A DNA stretch of 64,000 bases. It comes from Candidatus Saccharimonadota bacterium (GTDB taxonomy: Bacteria > Patescibacteriota > Saccharimonadia > Saccharimonadales > Saccharimonadaceae). The stretch lies in contig JAFQYO010000016.1 in assembly GCA_017406405.1 (NCBI GenBank), positions 1 through 64,000 on the forward strand, written 5' to 3'. The notes beneath the pieces were generated by a model that was given only the letters and a program-made list of their open reading frames with translations, had not been told where the DNA came from and did no database searches. A program made the position numbers and the translations under genes. Of this stretch, positions 9,701 to 59,892 are shown piece by piece. Each line of letters starts with the position of its first letter. The stretch's first letter is position 1.

Positions 9701-11476
9701 ATGGCTGAGACAGACACGAAAGTTATTCAAATTGCGGGAGCGATTACGGTTGACGAGCTGGCAAAAGCGCTCGGACTTTCTGTTACTCAGTTGATTGGAG
9801 AACTTTTTAAGGAGGGGATTGTCGCGACGATAAATCAGAGGTTGGATTTTGATACGGCTTCGTTGATTTTAGACGAGCTGAATATTAAGGGGGTTAAACT
9901 CGAAAGAAAGAATACAGCGACGCAGACTTCGGAGATTCGAAGAGAGTTGTCAGATAAGGCGGTGAGTCGTCCGCCCGTCGTGGCAGTGATGGGACATGTT
10001 GACCACGGAAAAACAACGTTGCTTGATACGCTATTAAATAAGAAGACTGTTGAAGGTGAAGCCGGAGGAATTACACAGCATATTTCTGCATATCAGATGG
10101 AATACGAGGGGAGGAAAATTACTTTTCTAGATACGCCAGGACATGAGGCTTTTGCGGCGATTCGTCAACACGGAGCGATGCTAACAGATATGGTGGTGAT
10201 TGTGGTGGCGGCGGATGATGGTGTAAAGCCACAGACGATTGAGGCGATTAAGTTTGCGCAGGGAGCAAATGCGAAGATTATTGTCGCGATAAATAAGATA
10301 GATAGAGAGGGCGCGGATGTTCCGAGGACGATGGCGGATTTGTCGCAACACGGTCTGCAACCAGAGGAATGGGGTGGAAATACGACGATGATTCCGGTTT
10401 CTGCGAAGAGAGGAGATAACCTCGAGAAGCTCTTAGAGATGATTCTTTTGACGTCGGATATTGAGGAGTTAAAAGCAGACGTTGATATTCCGAGCGAAGG
10501 GCTGGTTATTGAGAGTCATATGGAGATGGGAAAGGGAAGCGTTGTAAATCTTCTTGTTACGGGCGGAGAGCTGAAAACTGGCGAGTTTATTGTTGCTGGG
10601 TCAACTTATGCAAAAATTAGGACCATGGTCGATTATAAAGGGCGACCAAAAGGAAAGGCGACGCCTTCGACGCCGGTTACTGTAACTGGGTTTAAGGATT
10701 TGCCGAATTTTGGGGATAGATTTGTTGAAGTTGCTGATGAGAAGGCAGCAAGGAAGATGGCGCTTTTGAATGCGCAGGCAGAGTTAAATGCGAACGTGTC
10801 GGCGAACGTAACTTCTTCGGATTTGCTCAGAATGATGAATGTGGCGGATAATTCAAAGGTCTTTAATGTGATTATTAAAGGCGATGTTTTAGGGTCAGTG
10901 ACGTCGGTAGTAGATTCTTTGAAGTTAATCGACACGAAGGGAGAAATTACGCTTAATATTGTCGCGACAGGGGTAGGGGACATAACGGAAAACGATGTTT
11001 ATATGGCCGAGGGAGGGGAAACGGTGATTTATGGGTTTAATGTTTCTGTTCCGACTAATATTTCTAAGATGGCGGCAAGAGATGGTGTGAAAATTAAGAC
11101 TTTTCGGGTCATATACGAGCTTCTTGATGATGCTAAATCAGAGATGGAAGAACTGTTGCCAGCGGAAATTGTCGAGGAAGATAAGGGGGAAATGAAGGTT
11201 CTAGGAGTGTTCAGGACTGAGAGGACGGCGATTATCGCGGGAGGAGAGGTTCTGAAAGGAGAGGTGAAACCGGAATACTTTGCACGGGTTTATCGGGGGA
11301 AGGAACTAATCGGAGAAGTGCAGGTTTCTGGGGTGCAAAAAGAGAAAATTGATGTTAAGGAGTTGGTTGCTGGCGAAACGGGCGGGATTGCTTTGAAACT
11401 TGAGAAGAAATTGACGATTGAAATAAATGATAGATTGAAATTCTTTATTAGAGAGAAGAGGAAACGCAAACTTTAG
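9701..11476 (+). CDS. infB: Translation initiation factor IF-2
   Basis: The 591-residue protein has a short N-terminal IF2-N domain (about 8-60), then the GTPase domain with GHVDHGKTT (G1, near 97), DTPGHEAF (G3) and NKID (G4), followed by domains II-IV. IF-2 places fMet-tRNA on the small subunit. It lacks the long variable N-terminal region of larger bacteria, fitting a reduced genome. I chose the ATG at 9701; a TTG immediately before it would add one residue. AAAGGAG lies 12 bases upstream. The presence of fmt and def in the same window fits formylated initiation. Confidence 0.97.
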   Translation: MAETDTKVIQIAGAITVDELAKALGLSVTQLIGELFKEGIVATINQRLDFDTASLILDELNIKGVKLERKNTATQTSEIRRELSDKAVSRPPVVAVMGHVDHGKTTLLDTLLNKKTVEGEAGGITQHISAYQMEYEGRKITFLDTPGHEAFAAIRQHGAMLTDMVVIVVAADDGVKPQTIEAIKFAQGANAKIIVAINKIDREGADVPRTMADLSQHGLQPEEWGGNTTMIPVSAKRGDNLEKLLEMILLTSDIEELKADVDIPSEGLVIESHMEMGKGSVVNLLVTGGELKTGEFIVAGSTYAKIRTMVDYKGRPKGKATPSTPVTVTGFKDLPNFGDRFVEVADEKAARKMALLNAQAELNANVSANVTSSDLLRMMNVADNSKVFNVIIKGDVLGSVTSVVDSLKLIDTKGEITLNIVATGVGDITENDVYMAEGGETVIYGFNVSVPTNISKMAARDGVKIKTFRVIYELLDDAKSEMEELLPAEIVEEDKGEMKVLGVFRTERTAIIAGGEVLKGEVKPEYFARVYRGKELIGEVQVSGVQKEKIDVKELVAGETGGIALKLEKKLTIEINDRLKFFIREKRKRKL

Positions 11477-11503
11477 ATTTTCTATAATAAAAAGGAGGTA
11501 AAG

Positions 11504-11794
11504 ATGAGGTTTGATGAAACGTTTTTGAAGGAAGTGGGACTTTTGGCGATGCCAGAGGAAGAAAAAGCGGAGTTTTTGAGCTATGTCCAGGAAGAATTAG
11601 AGGTCAGGATTGGGGAGGAAATTGCTGAAGGGATGACAGAGGAGAAAATGAAGGAGTTTGAAGACGCGCAGACGGACGAGGAGGCTGAAAAGTGGTTGGC
11701 GACTAATAGACCGAATTATCGCGAGATTGTCCAAAATACCTTAAAGGAGCTGAAAGAAGAGATTAGTAGAAATAGAGATAAGCTGTTAGGGTAG
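11504..11794 (+). CDS. Small acidic CPR hypothetical (DUF5663-like)
   Basis: The 96-residue acidic protein is predicted all-helical, with the pattern MRFDETFLKEVGLLAMPEEEK followed by an E-rich middle and a NRPNYREIV segment. It resembles the small DUF5663-type proteins common in CPR genomes, from memory of the family pattern. A strong AAAGGAGGT site lies before the ATG. It follows infB by 27 bases and precedes a bidirectional terminator. A related small acidic protein is encoded at 28382-28726. The function is unknown. Confidence 0.6.
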   Translation: MRFDETFLKEVGLLAMPEEEKAEFLSYVQEELEVRIGEEIAEGMTEEKMKEFEDAQTDEEAEKWLATNRPNYREIVQNTLKELKEEISRNRDKLLG

Positions 11795-11824
11795 GGATTT
11801 CAAGAGGGATTAGGGAACAAAAAA

Positions 11825-11887
11825 GTCCCATGGTGCGGGATAGGTAAGGGTGGGCATCACCTATCTCCGCGCTATGGGACCTTTTTT
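11825..11887. terminator. Bidirectional terminator hairpin
   Basis: GTCCCAT...GATAGGT pairs with ACCTATC...ATGGGAC in a long interrupted stem flanked by A6 on one side and T6 on the other. It can therefore stop transcription from both directions: the infB operon on plus and the predicted RNA from 12147 on minus. Confidence 0.75.
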
Positions 11888-12147
11888 CACCCTATAACGC
11901 TTCCATAAGATACCGGGAGGACCCCGGAAGCGCGACCCACCTCACACAAATTGGGGCCCGCCGGTTATAGGGGTTGCTATGCCTTCAAAAGACCCTCAAA
12001 GTGGAGGTAATACTTATAAGACTTAAAACCATTGAAGAAGAAATTAAAAGTCTGAGGGGTTTTAAAAGCACGCAACTTCTGCTACACTAAAAGTGTAGCG
12101 AAAGTTATAATTTATTTAGGTACAGTTTAAGGCAAAAGCCTTAACTT
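11825..12147 (-). ncRNA. Candidate non-coding RNA, about 320 nt, class unknown
   Basis: This gene-free stretch carries a minus-strand extended -10 (TGC then TATAAT, 12159-12154). Below it are a stem TTAAGGC/GCCTTAA, a stem CTACACT/AGTGTAG, and a closed domain in which CCCCTATAAC (11972-11963) pairs with GTTATAGGG (11897-11889). Inside that domain CCGGG/CCCGG and GCTTCC/GGAAGC are mutually exclusive pairings. It ends at the bidirectional terminator. I looked for tmRNA, RNase P and SRP RNA hallmarks and did not find them. No ORF with a plausible start fits. Confidence 0.5.
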
Positions 12148-12153
12148 GTGTTG

Positions 12154-12159
12154 ATTATA
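12154..12159 (-). promoter_or_regulatory. Extended -10 box for the candidate RNA
   Basis: On the minus strand TGC precedes TATAAT, with transcription predicted to begin near 12147. No minus-strand coding sequence follows, which is why I call an RNA gene. Confidence 0.5.
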
Positions 12160-12201
12160 GCACTTTCAAATAAAAAAGTCAACAATTTTTTCACATTTTT
12201 T

Positions 12202-13080
12202 ATGAAAATCAAACAAATTTTGCCTCAAGAGAATAATTATACTAAGGTGTTGGAGCATATTGCGCTTATGCCTAAAATGTTGTATTATAGCGGAAAATGG
12301 CCGGAAGAGAGAGAAAAAACCGTGGCGATTGTTGGCTCGAGAAAATGCACGAAATACGGGGAGGGAATTGCTTATAAACTCGCTTTTGAGCTCGCAAAGA
12401 AGGGAGTGATTGTTGTTTCGGGACTTGCGTATGGGGTGGATTCGATAGCGGCGAGAGGTGCGATTGACGGGGGTGGAAAGACGATTGCGATTTTAGGGAC
12501 GGAAATTGAAAAAATTTATCCTAAGCAACACGTGAAGCTTGCTGAAGAGATTGTTGAAAAAGGGGGAGTAGTGGCGAGCGAATATACGCTCGGAGATAAG
12601 GTTTATCCTCAGGCATCGTCGTTTTTGATGCGAAATAGGATTATTTCGGGATTGGCAGATACGGTAGTGATTGTTGAAGCGGCGGAGAGGTCAGGGAGTT
12701 TAAATACGGCGGCGCACGCTTTAGAACAGGGAAAAGATTTGTTTGCGGTTCCAGGGGATATTGGGAAGACGATGAGTGCGGGGTGTAATAGGTTGATACA
12801 GAAGGGGGCGAATGTGTTTTTAGGGGTGGAAGAATTTATGCAATATATGTTCCCGCCAAAGAGTAAGAAACAGAAGAATAGAGAACAGATTTCGCTATTT
12901 GGGGATGCTCCAGAGGAAGTGGCGATTCTCAAGATGATTGTAGAGGAAGGTATTAGAGATGGGGATTTGATTATGGAAAAGCTAGAGATGGCAGTTCCGG
13001 TTTATAATCAGGCGATTACGATGCTAGAGGTGAAAGGGGTGATAAAGCCGCTCGGAGCGAATCATTGGACGATGGCTTAA
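12202..13080 (+). CDS. dprA: DNA-processing protein DprA (Smf)
   Basis: The 292-residue protein has the Rossmann-like DprA core: VAIVGSRKC near residue 36, SGLAYGVDSIAARGAI, and AERSGSLNTAAHALEQGKDLFAVPG. It ends with a winged-helix-like region (about 235-292). DprA loads RecA onto incoming single-stranded DNA during natural transformation, and CPR bacteria commonly keep it. I chose the ATG at 12202; the in-frame ATG at 12148 would overlap the predicted divergent promoter. The stop overlaps the convergent fmt stop by four bases. Confidence 0.92.
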   Translation: MKIKQILPQENNYTKVLEHIALMPKMLYYSGKWPEEREKTVAIVGSRKCTKYGEGIAYKLAFELAKKGVIVVSGLAYGVDSIAARGAIDGGGKTIAILGTEIEKIYPKQHVKLAEEIVEKGGVVASEYTLGDKVYPQASSFLMRNRIISGLADTVVIVEAAERSGSLNTAAHALEQGKDLFAVPGDIGKTMSAGCNRLIQKGANVFLGVEEFMQYMFPPKSKKQKNREQISLFGDAPEEVAILKMIVEEGIRDGDLIMEKLEMAVPVYNQAITMLEVKGVIKPLGANHWTMA

Positions 13081-26362: not shown

Positions 26363-26571
26363 GGGGTCGCAAACCCGTAGCCGCGAATGTCGTTGCTCTG
26401 AGGGTGCAAGCCTGATGAATGGAAGTATAGGTTGTAGGAGTACGTAGTATTGTGGGGACGAAGCGACCAATAGAGGCCGTACGAACCTTTGTAGTTAAGC
26501 CCCGTAGAGGCCCAGGCGTAGTCGCCACTCCTCACATACGATAATGGAGCGCTGAGGAGGCCGAAGTCGCG
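26359..26571 (-). pseudogene. Cassette A6 (abuts ileS)
   Basis: It reads SGDYAWASTGLNYKGSYGLY and ends RGYGFATP with a TAA that overlaps the ileS stop. The last codons of the domain are replaced by sequence at the ileS end, so this is the array's terminal, truncated member. Confidence 0.83.
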
Positions 26572-26590
26572 AGAGGAAAGCGATACGCAA

Positions 26591-26799
26591 CGCATCGCAA
26601 ACCCGTAGCCGCGATTGTAGTTGTTCCGACGGTCTAAGTCCGATGAGTTGAAGTTCAGGTAGCTGGAGCTCGTAGTATTGTTGGAACGAAGCGTCCAATA
26701 GTAGCCGTTCGAACCTCTGTTGTTAAGCTCCGTAGAGCCCCAGCCGTAGTTGCCACTCCTCACATATGATAATGGAGCGCTGAGGAGGCCGTAGTCGCG
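26591..26799 (-). pseudogene. Cassette A5 (richest in AAC codons)
   Basis: It reads SGNYGWGSTELNNRGSNGYY and then SSSYLNFNSSDLDRRNNYN. Many variable positions are AAC, the codon inferred for the template, so it is the closest of the twelve to an unmutated copy. The tail MRCVSLSS retains the natural C-terminal residues. It is in frame with A6. Confidence 0.85.
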
Positions 26800-26857: not shown

Positions 26858-27064
26858 GTGCACCGCAAACCCGTAGCCGCGATTGTAGTAGTTCTGAGGG
26901 GTCAAGTGCGATGAGTAGAAGTACAGGTTGTTGGAGTACGCAGTATTGCTGGAACGAAGCGACCAATAGTAGCCGAGCGAACCTCTGCTGCTGAGCTCCG
27001 TAGAGCTCCAGTAAGTGCCACTCCTCACATACGATAATGGGGCGCTGAGGAGGCCGTAGTCGCG
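26858..27064 (-). pseudogene. Cassette A4 (two codons shorter)
   Basis: It reads SGTYWSSTELSSRGSLGYYW, lacking two residues before the conserved Trp, and ends RGYGFAVH. It is followed by the longest spacer of the array (58 bp), which is pyrimidine-rich on the coding strand. Confidence 0.82.
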
Positions 27065-27078
27065 GGAGGTTCTTGTGT

Positions 27079-27287
27079 CGCACCGCAAACCCGGTTCCGC
27101 GAGCGCTGTTGTACTGAGGGCTCAAGTTCGACGAGCCGAAGTACAAGTAGTAGGAGCTCGTAGTATTGCTGGAACGAAGCGACCAATAGTAGCCGAACGA
27201 ACCTCTGACGAAAAGTTCGGTAGAATAATAACGGTAATCTCCACTCCTCACATACGATAATGGAGCGCTAAGGAGGCCGTAGTCGCG
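27079..27287 (-). pseudogene. Cassette A3 (shares its 5' half with B2)
   Basis: SGDYRYYSTELFVRGS is identical at protein level to cassette B2 of the other array and differs from the xWxST pattern of the rest. The 3' half (SSNTTSSYYLYFGSSNLSPQ) differs from B2 at NNC codons. Confidence 0.85.
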
Positions 27288-27306: not shown

Positions 27307-27519
27307 GCGTACCGTAAAGCCGAGGCCTCGGGCATAATCGCTGTTTCGAGGGTAGAAACTTTGCGTGCTGTATCTTAGGAAGTTTGAGGTCGTGGTGCTA
27401 TTTGAGCGAAGCGACCAATAGTAGCCGTTCGAACCTCTGTTGTTAAGCTCCGTAGAGTCCCAGTCATAATCTCCACTCCTCATATACGATAATGGGGCGC
27501 TGAGAAGGCCGTAGTCGCG
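27307..27519 (-). pseudogene. Cassette A2 (divergent 3' half)
   Basis: The 5' half is standard (SGDYDWDSTELNNRGSNGYY). The 3' half, TSNFLRYSTQSFYPRNSDYA, departs from the other cassettes outside the usual variable codons as well, and the end reads RGLGFTVR. It probably derives from a different parent gene or template. Confidence 0.8.
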
Positions 27520-27540
27520 GGTAGGGAAGATGTTGCGCAA

Positions 27541-27749
27541 CGCACCGCAAACCCGTAGCCACGATTGTTGTAGTCCTGAGGGCGCAAGGCTGACGAGTAG
27601 AAGACCAGGTAGCCGGAGCCCGTAGTACTGCCGGAATGAAGCGACCAATAGTGGCCGCGCGAACCTCTGTAGCTAAGCACCGTAGAGTTCCAGTCATAAT
27701 CTCCACTCCTCACATACGATAATGAAGCGCTAAGGAGGCCGTAGTCGCG
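27541..27749 (-). pseudogene. Cassette A1 (headless variable domain)
   Basis: First cassette of array A in coding order. Variable part: SGDYDWNSTVLSYRGSRGHY and then WSLHSGSTTGSGYL. Its variable codons are GAC, AAC, AGC, CGC, CAC, GGC, GGC, GTC, GCC, CGC, nearly all ending in C. It is followed by a 21-bp spacer and lies in another frame from A2. Confidence 0.85.
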
Positions 27750-37276: not shown

Positions 37277-38071
37277 ATGAGTCAAGATTTGACGCAGAAT
37301 GAGAAGAGCTTTCGGAGACGAAAAAGGGAAGAATATGATAGGGTTAAGGCCGAGGTAAAGAGACTTGAACAGTCTAATTTTTCTCGGTTGATTTTGTTCC
37401 GGAGTGGGGCAGAGTGGTTTAAGATGGGGGGGAATTCTCTTTTGATATATTATTTTGATATTGCGAGGAAGATTCTTAGTTTAAAGCCGAACATTCAGCC
37501 GGACACGGATTATTCGAAGACGATTTTCGAGGACGGGATTTTGTCGTTTCGGGGGATGGAGGGAATCGAGGAAAGATTAAGAAAAGCGGAAGTGATGGAG
37601 TCAAAGAAAGTCGGGAAGCAGACGGTTGTGTTCCAACTTAACTTTAAGATTTCGAAGGAGGAGTTAAAGGGGCTCAGAGAGGAGCTTAGAGAGGAAAGAG
37701 AGCGGGCACTGGCGGTTTTGAGGCCGGCGTCGATTTTGTATCCGGAGATTTATAAAAATATTCGACATATTCAGAAAAGATTGTTCGAAGTCGTAAGAAA
37801 GCTGTCGGCGTTTGAACGGGAATATAACGGAGATTTGATGGCGGATTATAGTCGGAAAATTGCGAAATATTATCTCATGATAAATAATGGAATGTCGCCA
37901 GAGAAAGAGGGGTGGGCGAAGATTCTAGAACTGATAAAACATTTGATGATTGAGATAATGTTCGCGAGCGAGCTCGGAGAAATTCGGCACGATGTGATTG
38001 TTTCGGTCGGGGCGGAGTTAGTCGAAGTTAGGAGGCAGATTGAACGGATTTCGGGGGCGGGGAGAGACTAA
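37277..38071 (+). CDS. DGR accessory protein (MutS-N-like plus Avd-like helical bundle)
   Basis: The 264-residue protein lies directly before the reverse transcriptase, with stop and start adjacent. Residues 30-70 (FSRLILFRSGAEWFKMGG, then SLLIYYFDIARKIL) resemble the first domain of MutS (the FYE/ELF region). The C-terminal 100 residues are four long helices (NIRHIQKRLFEVVRKL to ELVEVRRQIERIS), as in the Avd accessory bundle of diversity-generating retroelements. MutS-like (MSL) accessory proteins have been reported with DGRs, from memory of surveys. Its likely role is binding template RNA and assisting cDNA priming. An AAGGAAA site precedes the ATG. Confidence 0.7.
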   Translation: MSQDLTQNEKSFRRRKREEYDRVKAEVKRLEQSNFSRLILFRSGAEWFKMGGNSLLIYYFDIARKILSLKPNIQPDTDYSKTIFEDGILSFRGMEGIEERLRKAEVMESKKVGKQTVVFQLNFKISKEELKGLREELREERERALAVLRPASILYPEIYKNIRHIQKRLFEVVRKLSAFEREYNGDLMADYSRKIAKYYLMINNGMSPEKEGWAKILELIKHLMIEIMFASELGEIRHDVIVSVGAELVEVRRQIERISGAGRD

Positions 38072-54072: not shown

Positions 54073-54128
54073 AGTGGTTTTAAAATGGTGAGGGTTGGGA
54101 AGTTTAAGCGGGGTGCGGGGATTATGCG

Positions 54129-54338
54129 GTGCACCGCAAACCCGTAGCCGCGATTGTGGTAGTTCTGAGGGCTCAAGCCTGATGAGTCGAAGCCCAGGTT
54201 GTCGGAGTTCGTAGTAGTGTAGGAACGAAGCGACCAATAGTAGCCGCTCGAACCTCTGTAGCTAAGCCCAGTAGAGCTCCAGCTGTAGCTGCCACTTCTC
54301 ACATACGATAATGGGGCGCTAAGAAGGCCGTAGTCGCG
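54129..54338 (-). pseudogene. Cassette B6
   Basis: It reads SGSYSWSSTGLSYRGSSGYY and then SDNLGFDSSGLSPQNYHN, ending RGYGFAVH. Many variable codons are AGC. It is the distal end of array B; the palindrome GCGGTGCACCGC follows. Confidence 0.85.
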
Positions 54339-54406
54339 GGTGGAAAGATTTGGCATGTCGAGGACGACCTTATTTATGAAAAGGGAAGAATATGACCCTA
54401 GAAGTG

Positions 54407-54613
54407 TATCGCAAAGCCGTAGCCGCGACGGTAGAAGTTCTGAGGATCTAAGTCTGATGAGTAGAAACGTAAGCTTTTTGAATATGCAGTATCGTCGGAA
54501 CGAAGAATCCAATAGTAGCCGCGTGAACCTCTGAGAAGAAATTCCGCGGAGTACCAGCTGTAGTAGCCATTCCTCACATACGATAATGGGGCGCTGAGGA
54601 GGCCGTAGTCGCG
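54407..54613 (-). pseudogene. Cassette B5 (decayed, own stop)
   Basis: It reads RNGYYSWYSAEFLLRGSRGY and ends GFAIHF followed by TAG. Changes at fixed positions (SG to NG, STE to SAE) suggest relaxed constraint. Confidence 0.8.
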
Positions 54614-54676
54614 GGAGGAAAAGAGATCGGTATTGAGGGATTATAAATTGTGAGGATATAAACTTTTGATACGCAA

Positions 54677-54885
54677 CGCGTCGCATACCCGTAGCCGCGA
54701 TTGTCGAAGGGTTTTGGGTCTAAATTTGTTGAATAAAAAGTTAAGTAGAATGATTCTGAATTTGTGTGGGAGCGAGATATCCAGTAGCGCGCGCGAGAAC
54801 CTCTGTAGTTAAGATTTGTAGTGAGCCAACTGTAGTGACCACTCCTCACATATGATAATGGGGCGCTAAGGAGGCCGTAGTCGCG
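54677..54885 (-). pseudogene. Cassette B4 (decayed)
   Basis: It reads SGHYSWLTTNLNYRGSRARY and then ISRSHTNSESFYLTFYSTNL, changing several normally fixed residues (WSLR to WISR, GFAV to GYAT). It looks older or no longer maintained. Confidence 0.8.
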
Positions 54886-54890
54886 GGAGG

Positions 54891-55099
54891 CGCACCGCAA
54901 ACCCGCTTCCGCGATTGTTGTTGCGCTGAGGGTTCAAGCTTGATGAGTCGAAGTACAGGTAGTTGGAGAGCGTAGTATTGTAGGAACGAAGTGACCAATA
55001 GTGGCCGCGCGAACCTCTGTAGTCGAGCCCCGTAGAGTTCCAGACATAATCGCCACTCCTCACATACGATAATGGGGCGCTGAGAAGGCCGTAGTCGCG
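54891..55099 (-). pseudogene. Cassette B3
   Basis: It reads SGDYVWNSTGLDYRGSRGHY and then SNYLYFDSSSLNPQRNNN, with variable codons GTC, AAC, GAC, CGC, TAC, CTC, AAC, TAC, GAC, AGC, AAC, CGC. It is a clean example of the NNC pattern. Confidence 0.86.
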
Positions 55100-55122
55100 G
55101 GAGGAGAAAAGAGGATACGCAA

Positions 55123-55331
55123 CGCACCGCAAACCCGTTTCCGCGAGTGTTGCCGTACTGAGGGTCTAAGTACGATGAGCGGAAGCTCAGGCAGCTGGAG
55201 TTCGTAGTATTGTTGGGACGAAGCGACCAATAGTAGCCGCCCGAACCTCTGACGAAAAGTTCGGTAGAATAATAACGGTAATCTCCACTCCTCACATATG
55301 ATAGTGGGGCGCTGAGGAGGCCGTAGTCGCG
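55123..55331 (-). pseudogene. Cassette B2 (shares its 5' half with A3)
   Basis: SGDYRYYSTELFVRGS equals A3; the remainder (RPNNTTNSSCLSFRSSYLDP) differs at NNC codons. It ends RGNGFAVRCVSSFLL, keeping the natural RCVS tail. Confidence 0.85.
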
Positions 55332-55334
55332 GGA

Positions 55335-55544
55335 ATACACCGCAAACCCGACGCCGCGACGGTCGTTGCTCCGAGGGCTTAAGTGCGACGAGTAGAAGCT
55401 CAGGTAGTCGGAGTACGTAGTATTGCTGGAACGAAGCGACCAATAGTGGCCACGTTCGCCTCTATAGTTAAGAAATGTAGATGCCCAGGCGTAATCTCCA
55501 CTCCTCACATACGATAATGGGGCGCTGAGGAGGCCGTAGTCGCG
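55335..55544 (-). pseudogene. Cassette B1
   Basis: It reads SGDYAWASTFLNYRGERGHY and then LSFYSSHLSPRSNDRRGVG. Its 5' half resembles A6 (DYAWAST). It is joined to B2 by only 3 bp, in frame. Confidence 0.84.
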
Positions 55545-55589
55545 AGAAGGGAATTATTGCATAAGCAGAATGTGTGGTATAATTTAGAC

Positions 55590-56910: not shown

Positions 56911-59892
56911 TTAATGAGAAATGGAGAGGAAGCCTTCCGATGCTTCGGATTGTTCGCGGAGAGAGATAATTCCGTCACCGTTTTTATCAAGAGGGGGATT
57001 TGAGGAGTTCGATAGCTTTGGAGCGGCTAGAGAAGCTGGATTTGGGGCGACTGGTTTTGGAGAGGAGGTTGGCTGAACCTGAGCGGCTTTCCGTTCCCTT
57101 TTTTGGCGTTTTTTACGGCTTTTAGAGCGTTTTGAGGGCTTTTCTGAAGAAGAGATGATTCCCTGTTCGTTTTCGGGTTTTTCTTCTGATTTCTTCTCGG
57201 CAAATAATTTTCCAAGGTCTTTTAAGCTCGGACGGTCGGATTTTTCTTCGGCTTCAGAAGGGGAAAGTTTGAGTTTTTTGAATTGTTCTTGGGGGGTGAG
57301 CTCGCGAGGAGGTTTGTACGGTTTTTGTTCGGCTTTGAAACGAGCTGCTTCGGGTTTGTAGGACTTGGATTTTTGAATATCGGACGATTTAAACATGAAT
57401 TTCGGGGGAGCGGAATTTGTGATGATTCCCTGTTCTCCGGAGGGCTTTCCAGAGGCAGAGAGCTCGCGTTTGTATTTTTCGCTCGCTTCAATTGTCTCGC
57501 GAATTTCTGCTTCGACTTCGGAGCGAGGGCGGGAATATTGAGCGCGACTCGAGTCTATGATTTCTTCGAGGTTATCGTGAGGGGAGGCCGGGATTTGGAG
57601 GGTCGTAGCGGAGAAGGCGGGGACCTTTTCCCCGTTAATAATCATAGAGATAATGAAGTTTCGGTTGTTCATTTGGATAAGGTCGTTCGTGTCGAAAGTT
57701 GGCTCGAATTGTTTTACGAGGAGCGGAGCGTCGTCGGCGGAGACGCGGAAGGAAATGGTCGTGCCGACGTTTCCGAAGACGGCGTCGCGGACGGAATCAG
57801 TCATTTGGGCGATGTATTGGTTCGCAACGGTGAGGTTTAGGCCATATTTTCTTGCTTCGGAGAGGATGACGGCAAATGAGTCGGTTGCGAAGTTCTGGAA
57901 TTCGTCTACATAGAGGTAGAAAGGACGGCGGTCCTTTACGTCGGGGATATCAGAACGAGACATGGCGGCGAGTTGGACTTTTGTCACGAGGAAGGCGCCA
58001 AGGATACCGGCATTGTCTTCGCCGATTAAACCTTTAGATAGGTTTACTACTAGGATTTTTCCTTCGTCCATGATTTTTCTGATGTCGAAGGAGGATTTTG
58101 GCTGGCCGACGATGTTTCGGATAATTGGGTTCGCTGTGAAAGCGCCGACTTTATTCAGAACCGGGGCAATACTTTCGGTTACTTGTTTTTCGTTCCAGGT
58201 TCCAAATTCTTGTTTCCAGAATTGAAGGACGGTTACATCTTTACAATAGTCGAGAGTTTCCTTTCTGAAGTCTTTGTCGGTTAGCATCCGGGAGATGTCG
58301 AGGAGAGTGGTTTCTGGGCGGTCGAGAAGAGCAAGGAGAGTGTAACGGAGGATATGCTCAAGACGAGGACCCCAAGAATCGCCGAACATGCGTTTTAGGA
58401 CGCCGATGACTTCCGAGGAGACGTTCGGCTTGCGAGCTGGGTCGGAGAGTTCGAGAGGGTTAAAGGCGACAGGATGGGCCGTGTCGGCGGGGTTGAAATA
58501 GACGACGTCTTTTATACGGCTTTCGGGGATAAAGCGAAGGTTGTTTATTGCGAAGTCGCCGTGGGGGTCAATAATACAATAACCTTGGTTGTAGAAAATA
58601 TCGGAGAGAGCAAAGAGTTCAAGAAGGCCAGATTTTCCGGCGCCTGTTTGGCCGATGATATAGACGTGGCGAGAGCGGTCGCGACGAAGCAGACCGAACT
58701 GGTGGTTTATGCCGCGGAAATTTGTCATGCCAAAGGCGGAGATGTTTTCGTCGGTCGCGGGGTTTCCAGTCAAGAGCGGGAGCTTTGCGGGGGGTTCGGC
58801 GGTTTTTGAGTTCGCCCAGACGATGTTCGGGGTTTCGACGCTGGTGTGGGGGAGGTGATAGACGCTGGCGAGCTCGCTGATGTTTAGGATGAAGCCGTTG
58901 TCGGTGAATTGGCGGAGTTTATAAGCGTCGAGAGCTTCGGGGTTGAAGGTGCTGTTAGCGACTTTAAAACCGTTTAGGTTTGTTGAGTTGAATTGTTTAA
59001 AGGTGCCGACGAGGGCTTGCATGTTTAGCTTTGCGTTTATTTCGTCGTTCCCGAGGTAAGCTAGACGAATTTTTACTTCGTAACCGAGCTTTGTTGCTTT
59101 TTCTTCGGCTTTAGCGATGCGAGTTTTGTCGCGTTCGGAGATTTCCGAGCCAGAAGCGCCGTCGCTACCAGAAGGAGGAGTCCAGAGCGCAGCGATGAGC
59201 TCTAAAAGATATTTCATATCGAGGAAAGTCGTCGAACGGCCGATTTTCCCGGACTTTACGCGGGAAATCCAGCGGTCGGTCGTGGTTTTGTGCCAATCGT
59301 CGGCAATCGGGCGGGTCAGGATTTGAATCCAGAGTTCTTCGTGTTGGTCACTGTCGAGCTTCGCTAGAGTTCCGGTTATCCCGGCGAGTGGGTCAACTTC
59401 GAATGTATCGAAGGTTTTTATCGGGAGAGCGGAATCTTCAGTCAGAGTCAGTTCGGAGGAATAGATAATGGAGTGTTTATGGCGGTTATCGACGTAGTCG
59501 TCGTCACATTTGAAGATTTGGACGGTCGGATATTGGGAGTAAATCTGGCCTTCGACAAAGGACTGGAGGATTTTGGGGACCCAGACGTAAAAGCGAATTT
59601 GGCCGCCGGTCGAGACAATTTCAAAAGAAAGGTGTTCTTGGACGCCACCTGAGTTTTTAAGCTCGTTTTTGTCGCGGAGGATGCCATGGAGAGAAGCGAA
59701 AAGTTGTTCCGCGGCAAGTTCCTTTTTATCGTTCGTGCGAGGGATTTCGAGCATGAGAAGAACTGAGTCGACATTAAGGACCTTTAAGCGGTTTGCTTGT
59801 TTATAGTTTCGATAAGTCAGGAAGGCAAATAATCCGACGAGCGGAATCCATACAATCGGGGTTAAAATAAAATGAATAAATTGCACAAACAT
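56911..59892 (-). CDS. VirD4/TraG-like type IV secretion ATPase with C-terminal EF-hand loop
   Basis: The 993-residue protein has an N-terminal membrane helix (about 8-25), a long region before the motor, Walker A GQTGAGKS (near 414) and Walker B YLYVDEFQNFA (near 660), as in TraG/VirD4/HerA-like DNA-pumping ATPases. The C-terminal 250 residues are disordered and charged. Near 969 they end in DKNGDGIISLRE, a textbook 12-residue EF-hand calcium loop (D, N, D, S, E at ligand positions). No other secretion genes (VirB4, VirB6, relaxase) are next to it. CPR bacteria use type IV-like systems in DNA uptake or host contact; the role here is inference. Confidence 0.85.
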   Translation of the reverse strand: MFVQFIHFILTPIVWIPLVGLFAFLTYRNYKQANRLKVLNVDSVLLMLEIPRTNDKKELAAEQLFASLHGILRDKNELKNSGGVQEHLSFEIVSTGGQIRFYVWVPKILQSFVEGQIYSQYPTVQIFKCDDDYVDNRHKHSIIYSSELTLTEDSALPIKTFDTFEVDPLAGITGTLAKLDSDQHEELWIQILTRPIADDWHKTTTDRWISRVKSGKIGRSTTFLDMKYLLELIAALWTPPSGSDGASGSEISERDKTRIAKAEEKATKLGYEVKIRLAYLGNDEINAKLNMQALVGTFKQFNSTNLNGFKVANSTFNPEALDAYKLRQFTDNGFILNISELASVYHLPHTSVETPNIVWANSKTAEPPAKLPLLTGNPATDENISAFGMTNFRGINHQFGLLRRDRSRHVYIIGQTGAGKSGLLELFALSDIFYNQGYCIIDPHGDFAINNLRFIPESRIKDVVYFNPADTAHPVAFNPLELSDPARKPNVSSEVIGVLKRMFGDSWGPRLEHILRYTLLALLDRPETTLLDISRMLTDKDFRKETLDYCKDVTVLQFWKQEFGTWNEKQVTESIAPVLNKVGAFTANPIIRNIVGQPKSSFDIRKIMDEGKILVVNLSKGLIGEDNAGILGAFLVTKVQLAAMSRSDIPDVKDRRPFYLYVDEFQNFATDSFAVILSEARKYGLNLTVANQYIAQMTDSVRDAVFGNVGTTISFRVSADDAPLLVKQFEPTFDTNDLIQMNNRNFIISMIINGEKVPAFSATTLQIPASPHDNLEEIIDSSRAQYSRPRSEVEAEIRETIEASEKYKRELSASGKPSGEQGIITNSAPPKFMFKSSDIQKSKSYKPEAARFKAEQKPYKPPRELTPQEQFKKLKLSPSEAEEKSDRPSLKDLGKLFAEKKSEEKPENEQGIISSSEKPSKRSKSRKKRQKRERKAAQVQPTSSPKPVAPNPASLAAPKLSNSSNPPLDKNGDGIISLREQSEASEGFLSISH

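Follow-up and report, generated by a model that had tools for sequence, protein, structure and literature searches.

The 64,000-nucleotide stretch of DNA analysed here (the window) contains two arrays of short cassettes, and the second of them, array B, raises the question of what builds such a bank and what keeps its units readable. Array B consists of six minus-strand cassettes of about 210 nt at 54132-55544; the six units occupy 54128-55550 with a spacing of 213-275 nt. Each cassette starts with CGCGACTACGGCC and ends near GGTTTGCGGTG. The 21-nt start motif was found 12 times in the window, six times each in array A and in array B, against 0.02 occurrences expected in shuffles, and array B is far above chance. 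A second six-unit minus-strand array sharing its start motif with array A, as an earlier note on this DNA had claimed, is therefore real. A gene for a TraG/VirD4-like coupling ATPase is located near array B, at 56911-59892, and this neighbour is conserved in relatives. The coordinates of the features are collected in Table 1.

Table 1 Features of the window. Non-adenine mismatches (non-A) are those to the template, counted over about 113 sites; units of array B are numbered in minus-strand (transcription) order.
Feature	Position	Strand	Remark
Cassette A6, array A	26365..26571	-	5' VR part in common with B1
Cassette A5, array A	26590..26799	-	
Cassette A4, array A	26861..27064	-	
Cassette A3, array A	27078..27287	-	partner of B2
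Cassette A2, array A	27307..27519	-	old
Cassette A1, array A	27540..27749	-	
264-aa gene, candidate DGR accessory (Avd-type)	37277..38071	+	immediately upstream of the RT with zero gap; assigned by position
DGR-type reverse transcriptase (RT), 372 aa	38072..39190	+	motifs IGNLSSQ and YVDD
Cassette B6	54132..54338	-	fresh; 4 non-A
Cassette B5	54407..54613	-	old; 21 non-A; no stop
Cassette B4	54676..54885	-	old; 35 non-A; no stop
Cassette B3	54890..55099	-	fresh; 6 non-A
Cassette B2	55122..55331	-	5' VR half in common with A3; 11 non-A
Cassette B1	55338..55544	-	leads array B; start-less VR fragment; in-frame stop 3 codons upstream, no start codon; 14 non-A

The genome to which the window belongs (G000, Candidatus Saccharibacteria; 697,629 bases in 20 contigs, 97% complete) was examined as a whole. 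Around one template we found 29 copies in 9 clusters or single sites, a larger set than the earlier note had described, and these copies together with one template-like copy are located on contigs C4, C8, C14 and C17. The template repeat (TR) at G000:C4:940-1137 is in the same frame as the cassettes and has AAC at nearly all variable codons (an all-Asn template). Per cassette, 25-53% of the template adenines were changed and 2-37% of the other bases, and the freshest copies differed from the template almost only at adenines. The fresh cassettes of a relative, G022, compared with their own TR, likewise showed changes at 42% of adenine sites and 9% of other sites. Differences concentrated at adenines are the signature of a diversity-generating retroelement (DGR), and we regard it as nearly certain that the cassettes originated as variable repeats (VRs) of such an element. 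It is this DGR, whose RT is encoded within the window, that the earlier note had left unnamed as the process at work.

The RT and the candidate accessory gene are located between arrays A and B. The RT matched PF00078 (E 2e-13), phrog_1423 (E 4e-75) and, as the best PDB chain, 8ub7_A (E 9e-23), which we take to be from the BPP-1 DGR RT complex. It is the only RT in the G000 genome, and its closest named relatives are from Candidatus Saccharibacteria. No family or PDB match was found for the 264-aa gene; a 270-aa ORF occupies the same position before the RT in G031. In G000, the TR is next to a copy of the 3' end of the target and on another contig than the RT. G022 likewise has its RT and TR on separate contigs, and G031 shows the classic layout, in which the target (1104 aa), the TR and the RT with the accessory gene are together. 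In three other relatives, at G013:C16, G014:C31 and G041:C5, the DGR RT matches are split in two near residue 165-171, which suggests an insertion inside the RT. The TR and the long copies have a 3' flank in common, whose folding energy in a hairpin test did not surpass that of shuffled sequences. A C-rich element (CCCTCCTCCCC / CCCCCTCCCCC) was observed about 60 nt 3' of the TR and the long VR copies in three species (L063:1136-1190, L063:676-745, L064 near 3300, and the counterparts in G022 and G011), and is possibly part of DGR target recognition.

The gene that the DGR diversifies was located from the assembly breaks, which fall in the VR repeat and leave upstream ends on C9, C16 and C8 and downstream ends on C4, C8 and C14. 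A long ORF was present at only one of the three upstream ends, that of C9, where it extends for 973 aa up to the contig break; the ends of C16 and C8 are 5'-truncated fragments. As three upstream ends meet three downstream ends at the repeat and only one of them bears a long ORF, a single full-length target gene is visible (>970 aa, with a Fib_succ_major tip). Its likeliest downstream end is C4, where the TR follows 590 nt further on. The C9 target matched PF09603 (Fib_succ_major) with an E of 1.5e-4, below the curated cut-off, and the G031 target with an E of 7e-10, above it; the VR is at the 3' end of the target gene. Structure prediction for an isolated cassette gave a mean pLDDT of 39 and did not demonstrate a C-type lectin fold. 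A 1123-aa ORF with two distant Fib_succ_major-like domains lies outside the cassette family (L061 about 11290-12990; G000:C14 about 75.3-77 kb) and has an apparent counterpart on C14 of G022.

The cassettes are copies of the target end truncated at both the 5' and the 3' side and without start codons. They extend from about 36 nt before the TR-homologous part to the VR end or just past it, and 25 of the copies are such 3'-truncated, start-less VR fragments beside the one full-length target found. One spacer between two cassettes of a single array, at G000:C17:21943-22236, is about 300 nt long, far longer than the other spacers.

Subsequently, we considered whether array B descends from array A. 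When the twelve cassettes were compared at non-adenine sites, they showed no grouping by array (between-minus-within distance -0.002, P = 0.58), and among all 29 copies only one nearest neighbour lay in the same cluster, against 3.7 by chance. Two clear cross-array pairs were observed, A3 with B2 and A6 with B1, and their order does not match; spacers also recur across the arrays in a different order. In their 5' parts, A3 and B2 have eight mutated adenine sites in common, where no pair exceeded six in 200 shuffles; in their 3' parts they differ at 20 adenines and 3 other sites. A single block duplication from A to B was accordingly rejected. The view that some process builds the arrays was upheld by this mixing of cassettes between them. 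Furthermore, the gap orthologous to array B was empty in G031 and held a single inverted cassette in G022, and that orthologous to array A was empty in G022; after the orthologue of array A's left-hand gene, G031 has no cassette and G011 has one in the opposite orientation. These gaps led us to reject the two arrays as shared ancestral arrays; A and B arose independently in the G000 lineage.

Similar banks are present in at least five relatives, and those of G000, G022, G011, G008 and G071 each have a species-specific fixed start. G030 (97% complete) contains about 100 cassette-like units of at least three classes, often in alternating orientation (e.g. L265-L276), and no DGR RT was detected in that genome; if the two-stage scheme set out below holds, a memory of variants may persist without an RT in some species such as this one. 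In G022, one VR is found at two loci, identical in every adenine state and with largely different flanks, and another pair of cassettes has a private 3' tract in common while sharing neither the 5' part nor the flanks. The latter pair is not what 3'-primed retrohoming would yield, and the G022 sequences reveal exchange between cassettes.

Whether the cassettes are still rewritten appears to depend on their 3' ends. Four copies in G000 keep the 3' flank, and these had 0, 0, 0 and 4 non-adenine mismatches to the present template, whereas the copies without it had a median of 6 (p = 0.002). The same association was observed in G022, where copies with the 3' flank had 3, 3 and 3 mismatches and those without it at least 4, with a median of 17 (p = 0.002). 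At a codon that is ACC in the template and in three long copies, the flank-less cassettes within 6 mismatches of the template have ACT, with one exception. Targets of BPP-1 require sequence 3' of the VR (PMC3240598); hence, loss of the flank plausibly ends rewriting, and the truncated cassettes appear to be frozen. One truncated copy, C17:22236, has a single mismatch to the template and looks like a recent snapshot. These results bear on the possibility that the cassettes are targets still being rewritten where they lie, by a multi-target DGR acting in trans, with no products made from the cassette loci themselves. Treponema and Thiohalocapsa provide known examples of DGR targets at a distance, and the cassette pairs alike in the 5' VR part with mostly adenine differences in the 3' part, such as A3/B2, have the polarity that 3'-primed retrohoming would give. 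However, the same polarity arises from successive snapshots of a partly rewritten target, and ongoing rewriting would accord poorly with flank-less cassettes that mismatch the present template and carry the older ACT codon, as well as with the requirement in BPP-1. We therefore consider rewriting in place unlikely.

The ages of the cassettes differ within array B, as had been proposed: B3 and B6 are fresh, and B4 and B5 are the most diverged. The description of the latter two as decayed did not stand, since stops and frameshifts are absent from both and their first 36 nt have hardly changed. Across the eight old cassettes of G000, 233 of 901 non-adenine VR sites (26%) differ from the cassette consensus; nevertheless no stop was present, against 12.7 expected from random placement of the same changes (zero in 0 of 2000 trials). 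Changes at C and G were two to four times commoner at third codon positions. In G022, stops were absent both from 16 old cassettes (41.3 expected) and from 35 fresh ones (15.9 expected), and no frameshift was found in 51 full-length cassettes. The 28 equal-length cassettes of G030 also had no stop, against 27.4 expected, with adenine sites defined there by consensus in place of a template. The absence of stops from diverged, frozen cassettes indicates that coding capacity is selected. Because the reading frame is conserved, the old units are not simply rotting copies, and neutral decay as the sole account of B4 and B5 was rejected on the lack of stops and the third-position excess.

This constraint also weighs on a second explanation, in which the cassettes are functionless by-products, scattered as VR fragments by ectopic recombination or faulty retrohoming and lost by drift. 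Their start-less, intergenic nature, ragged 3' ends and lineage-specific positions would fit such an origin, and in T. denticola, too, normal VR genes are accompanied by truncated or over-mutated ones (PMC4891356). By-products would, however, be expected to have collected stops (13, 41 and 27 in G000, G022 and G030) and frameshifts, and a frame-independent blastn search of the whole G000 genome revealed no additional, broken copies. The by-product reading is strongly disfavoured by the coding constraint, and we give it no better prospects than rewriting in place. That the cassettes are translated where they lie, as small proteins or extensions of neighbouring genes, would account for the constraint in the three genomes, and some neighbours do join in frame (B1 with B2, and cassettes of one array in G071), but in every G000 array the first cassette has no start codon and is preceded, at a distance of 3-5 codons, by a stop in the same frame. 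Spacers also change the frame, and the first half of the Fib_succ_major domain is missing from the cassette; translation in place is therefore very improbable.

The reading we favour as probable is that array B is one of several banks forming a silent archive of DGR-made variants, which are returned by recombination. The RT would copy the all-Asn TR with errors at adenines, and the mutated copy would rewrite the 3' end of the large surface-protein gene. Now and then, a piece of the target's 3' end, namely the VR with about 36 nt upstream, ending near the point where the VR's 3' flank begins, would be copied into intergenic DNA. Without the 3' flank, this copy would escape rewriting and become a snapshot of an earlier variant. 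A cassette could then return to the single full-length target by homologous recombination (gene conversion) through the shared 5' block and the VR framework. The snapshots must be expressed at times, since even diverged ones avoid stops and frameshifts, and gene conversion into the target is the most likely route. Storage of variants for return would best explain the coding constraint. G000 has a single expressed gene with start-less partial copies in open frame, and RecA is present at G000:C13:40483.

Several observations qualify this reading. In G000, no cassette-to-target transfer was seen, as the target VRs share no significant tract with the cassettes, and each species was represented by a single genome. 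The coding constraint could have been acquired while an old VR was still in the expressed gene, or the cassettes might be translated in some unrecognised way. In addition, only 13 of the 288 sites in the first 36 nt of the old G000 cassettes were changed (p = 5e-18), and such conservation beside 26% VR divergence calls for recombinational homogenisation or a separate function of the block; it suggests one of these, the function being for example that of a homology arm. That the mutagenic RT retrocopies entire cassettes directly was disfavoured, as the adenines of the first 36 nt are almost unmutated and the block is absent from the TR. The fuller scheme, a two-stage system in which the DGR hypermutates the gene, selected variants are stored as untouchable cassettes with fixed boundaries and recombination later restores them, is more tentative, and we place it slightly short of even chances.

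Saccharibacteria must recognise changing host surfaces, and DGRs are, to our knowledge, random mutators without a record of past successes. If the archive reading is true, a heritable memory of receptor variants would exist on top of the random mutator: a frozen, coding-constrained VR bank would give the DGR a memory and would join hypermutation and gene conversion as strategies of antigenic variation. The recurrence of the bank in several species of one Saccharibacteria genus makes this testable in cultured relatives and in population reads. Furthermore, surveys of DGRs may be counting many start-less copies among their VRs, and assemblies break at VR repeats.

Taken together, the system shares with known DGRs, of the BPP-1 type and of the multi-target Treponema denticola and Thiohalocapsa, a DGR-type RT, an all-Asn TR, adenine-directed variation, a VR at the 3' end of the target gene and targets in trans. 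Known multi-target DGRs have 2-7 whole target genes and, besides these, a few truncated ones (PMC4891356), whereas here one full-length target is accompanied by 25 start-less, 3'-truncated VR fragments in arrays, which appear frozen and are under coding constraint. No report of a silent DGR cassette bank was found in the literature searched, outside which most subscription papers lay. In the CDI/Rhs polymorphic toxins, orphan C-terminal modules are fragments of the 3' part of the gene that lack a start, carry a block of homology upstream and are presumed to enter the full gene by recombination. The present cassettes resemble them in these start-less 3' fragments and the upstream block; unlike them, they form no toxin/immunity pairs, and their variation is adenine-directed from an RNA template. 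Recombination with stand-alone cassettes is described for these toxins (PMC3482391). The closing comparison is with Borrelia vlsE and Neisseria pilE/pilS. As in those systems, one expressed gene, start-less partial copies in frame and RecA are present. In silent-cassette gene conversion of that kind, diversity comes only from the silent copies, whereas the copies described here are written by a hypermutating RT and their conversion into the expressed gene is what we infer.
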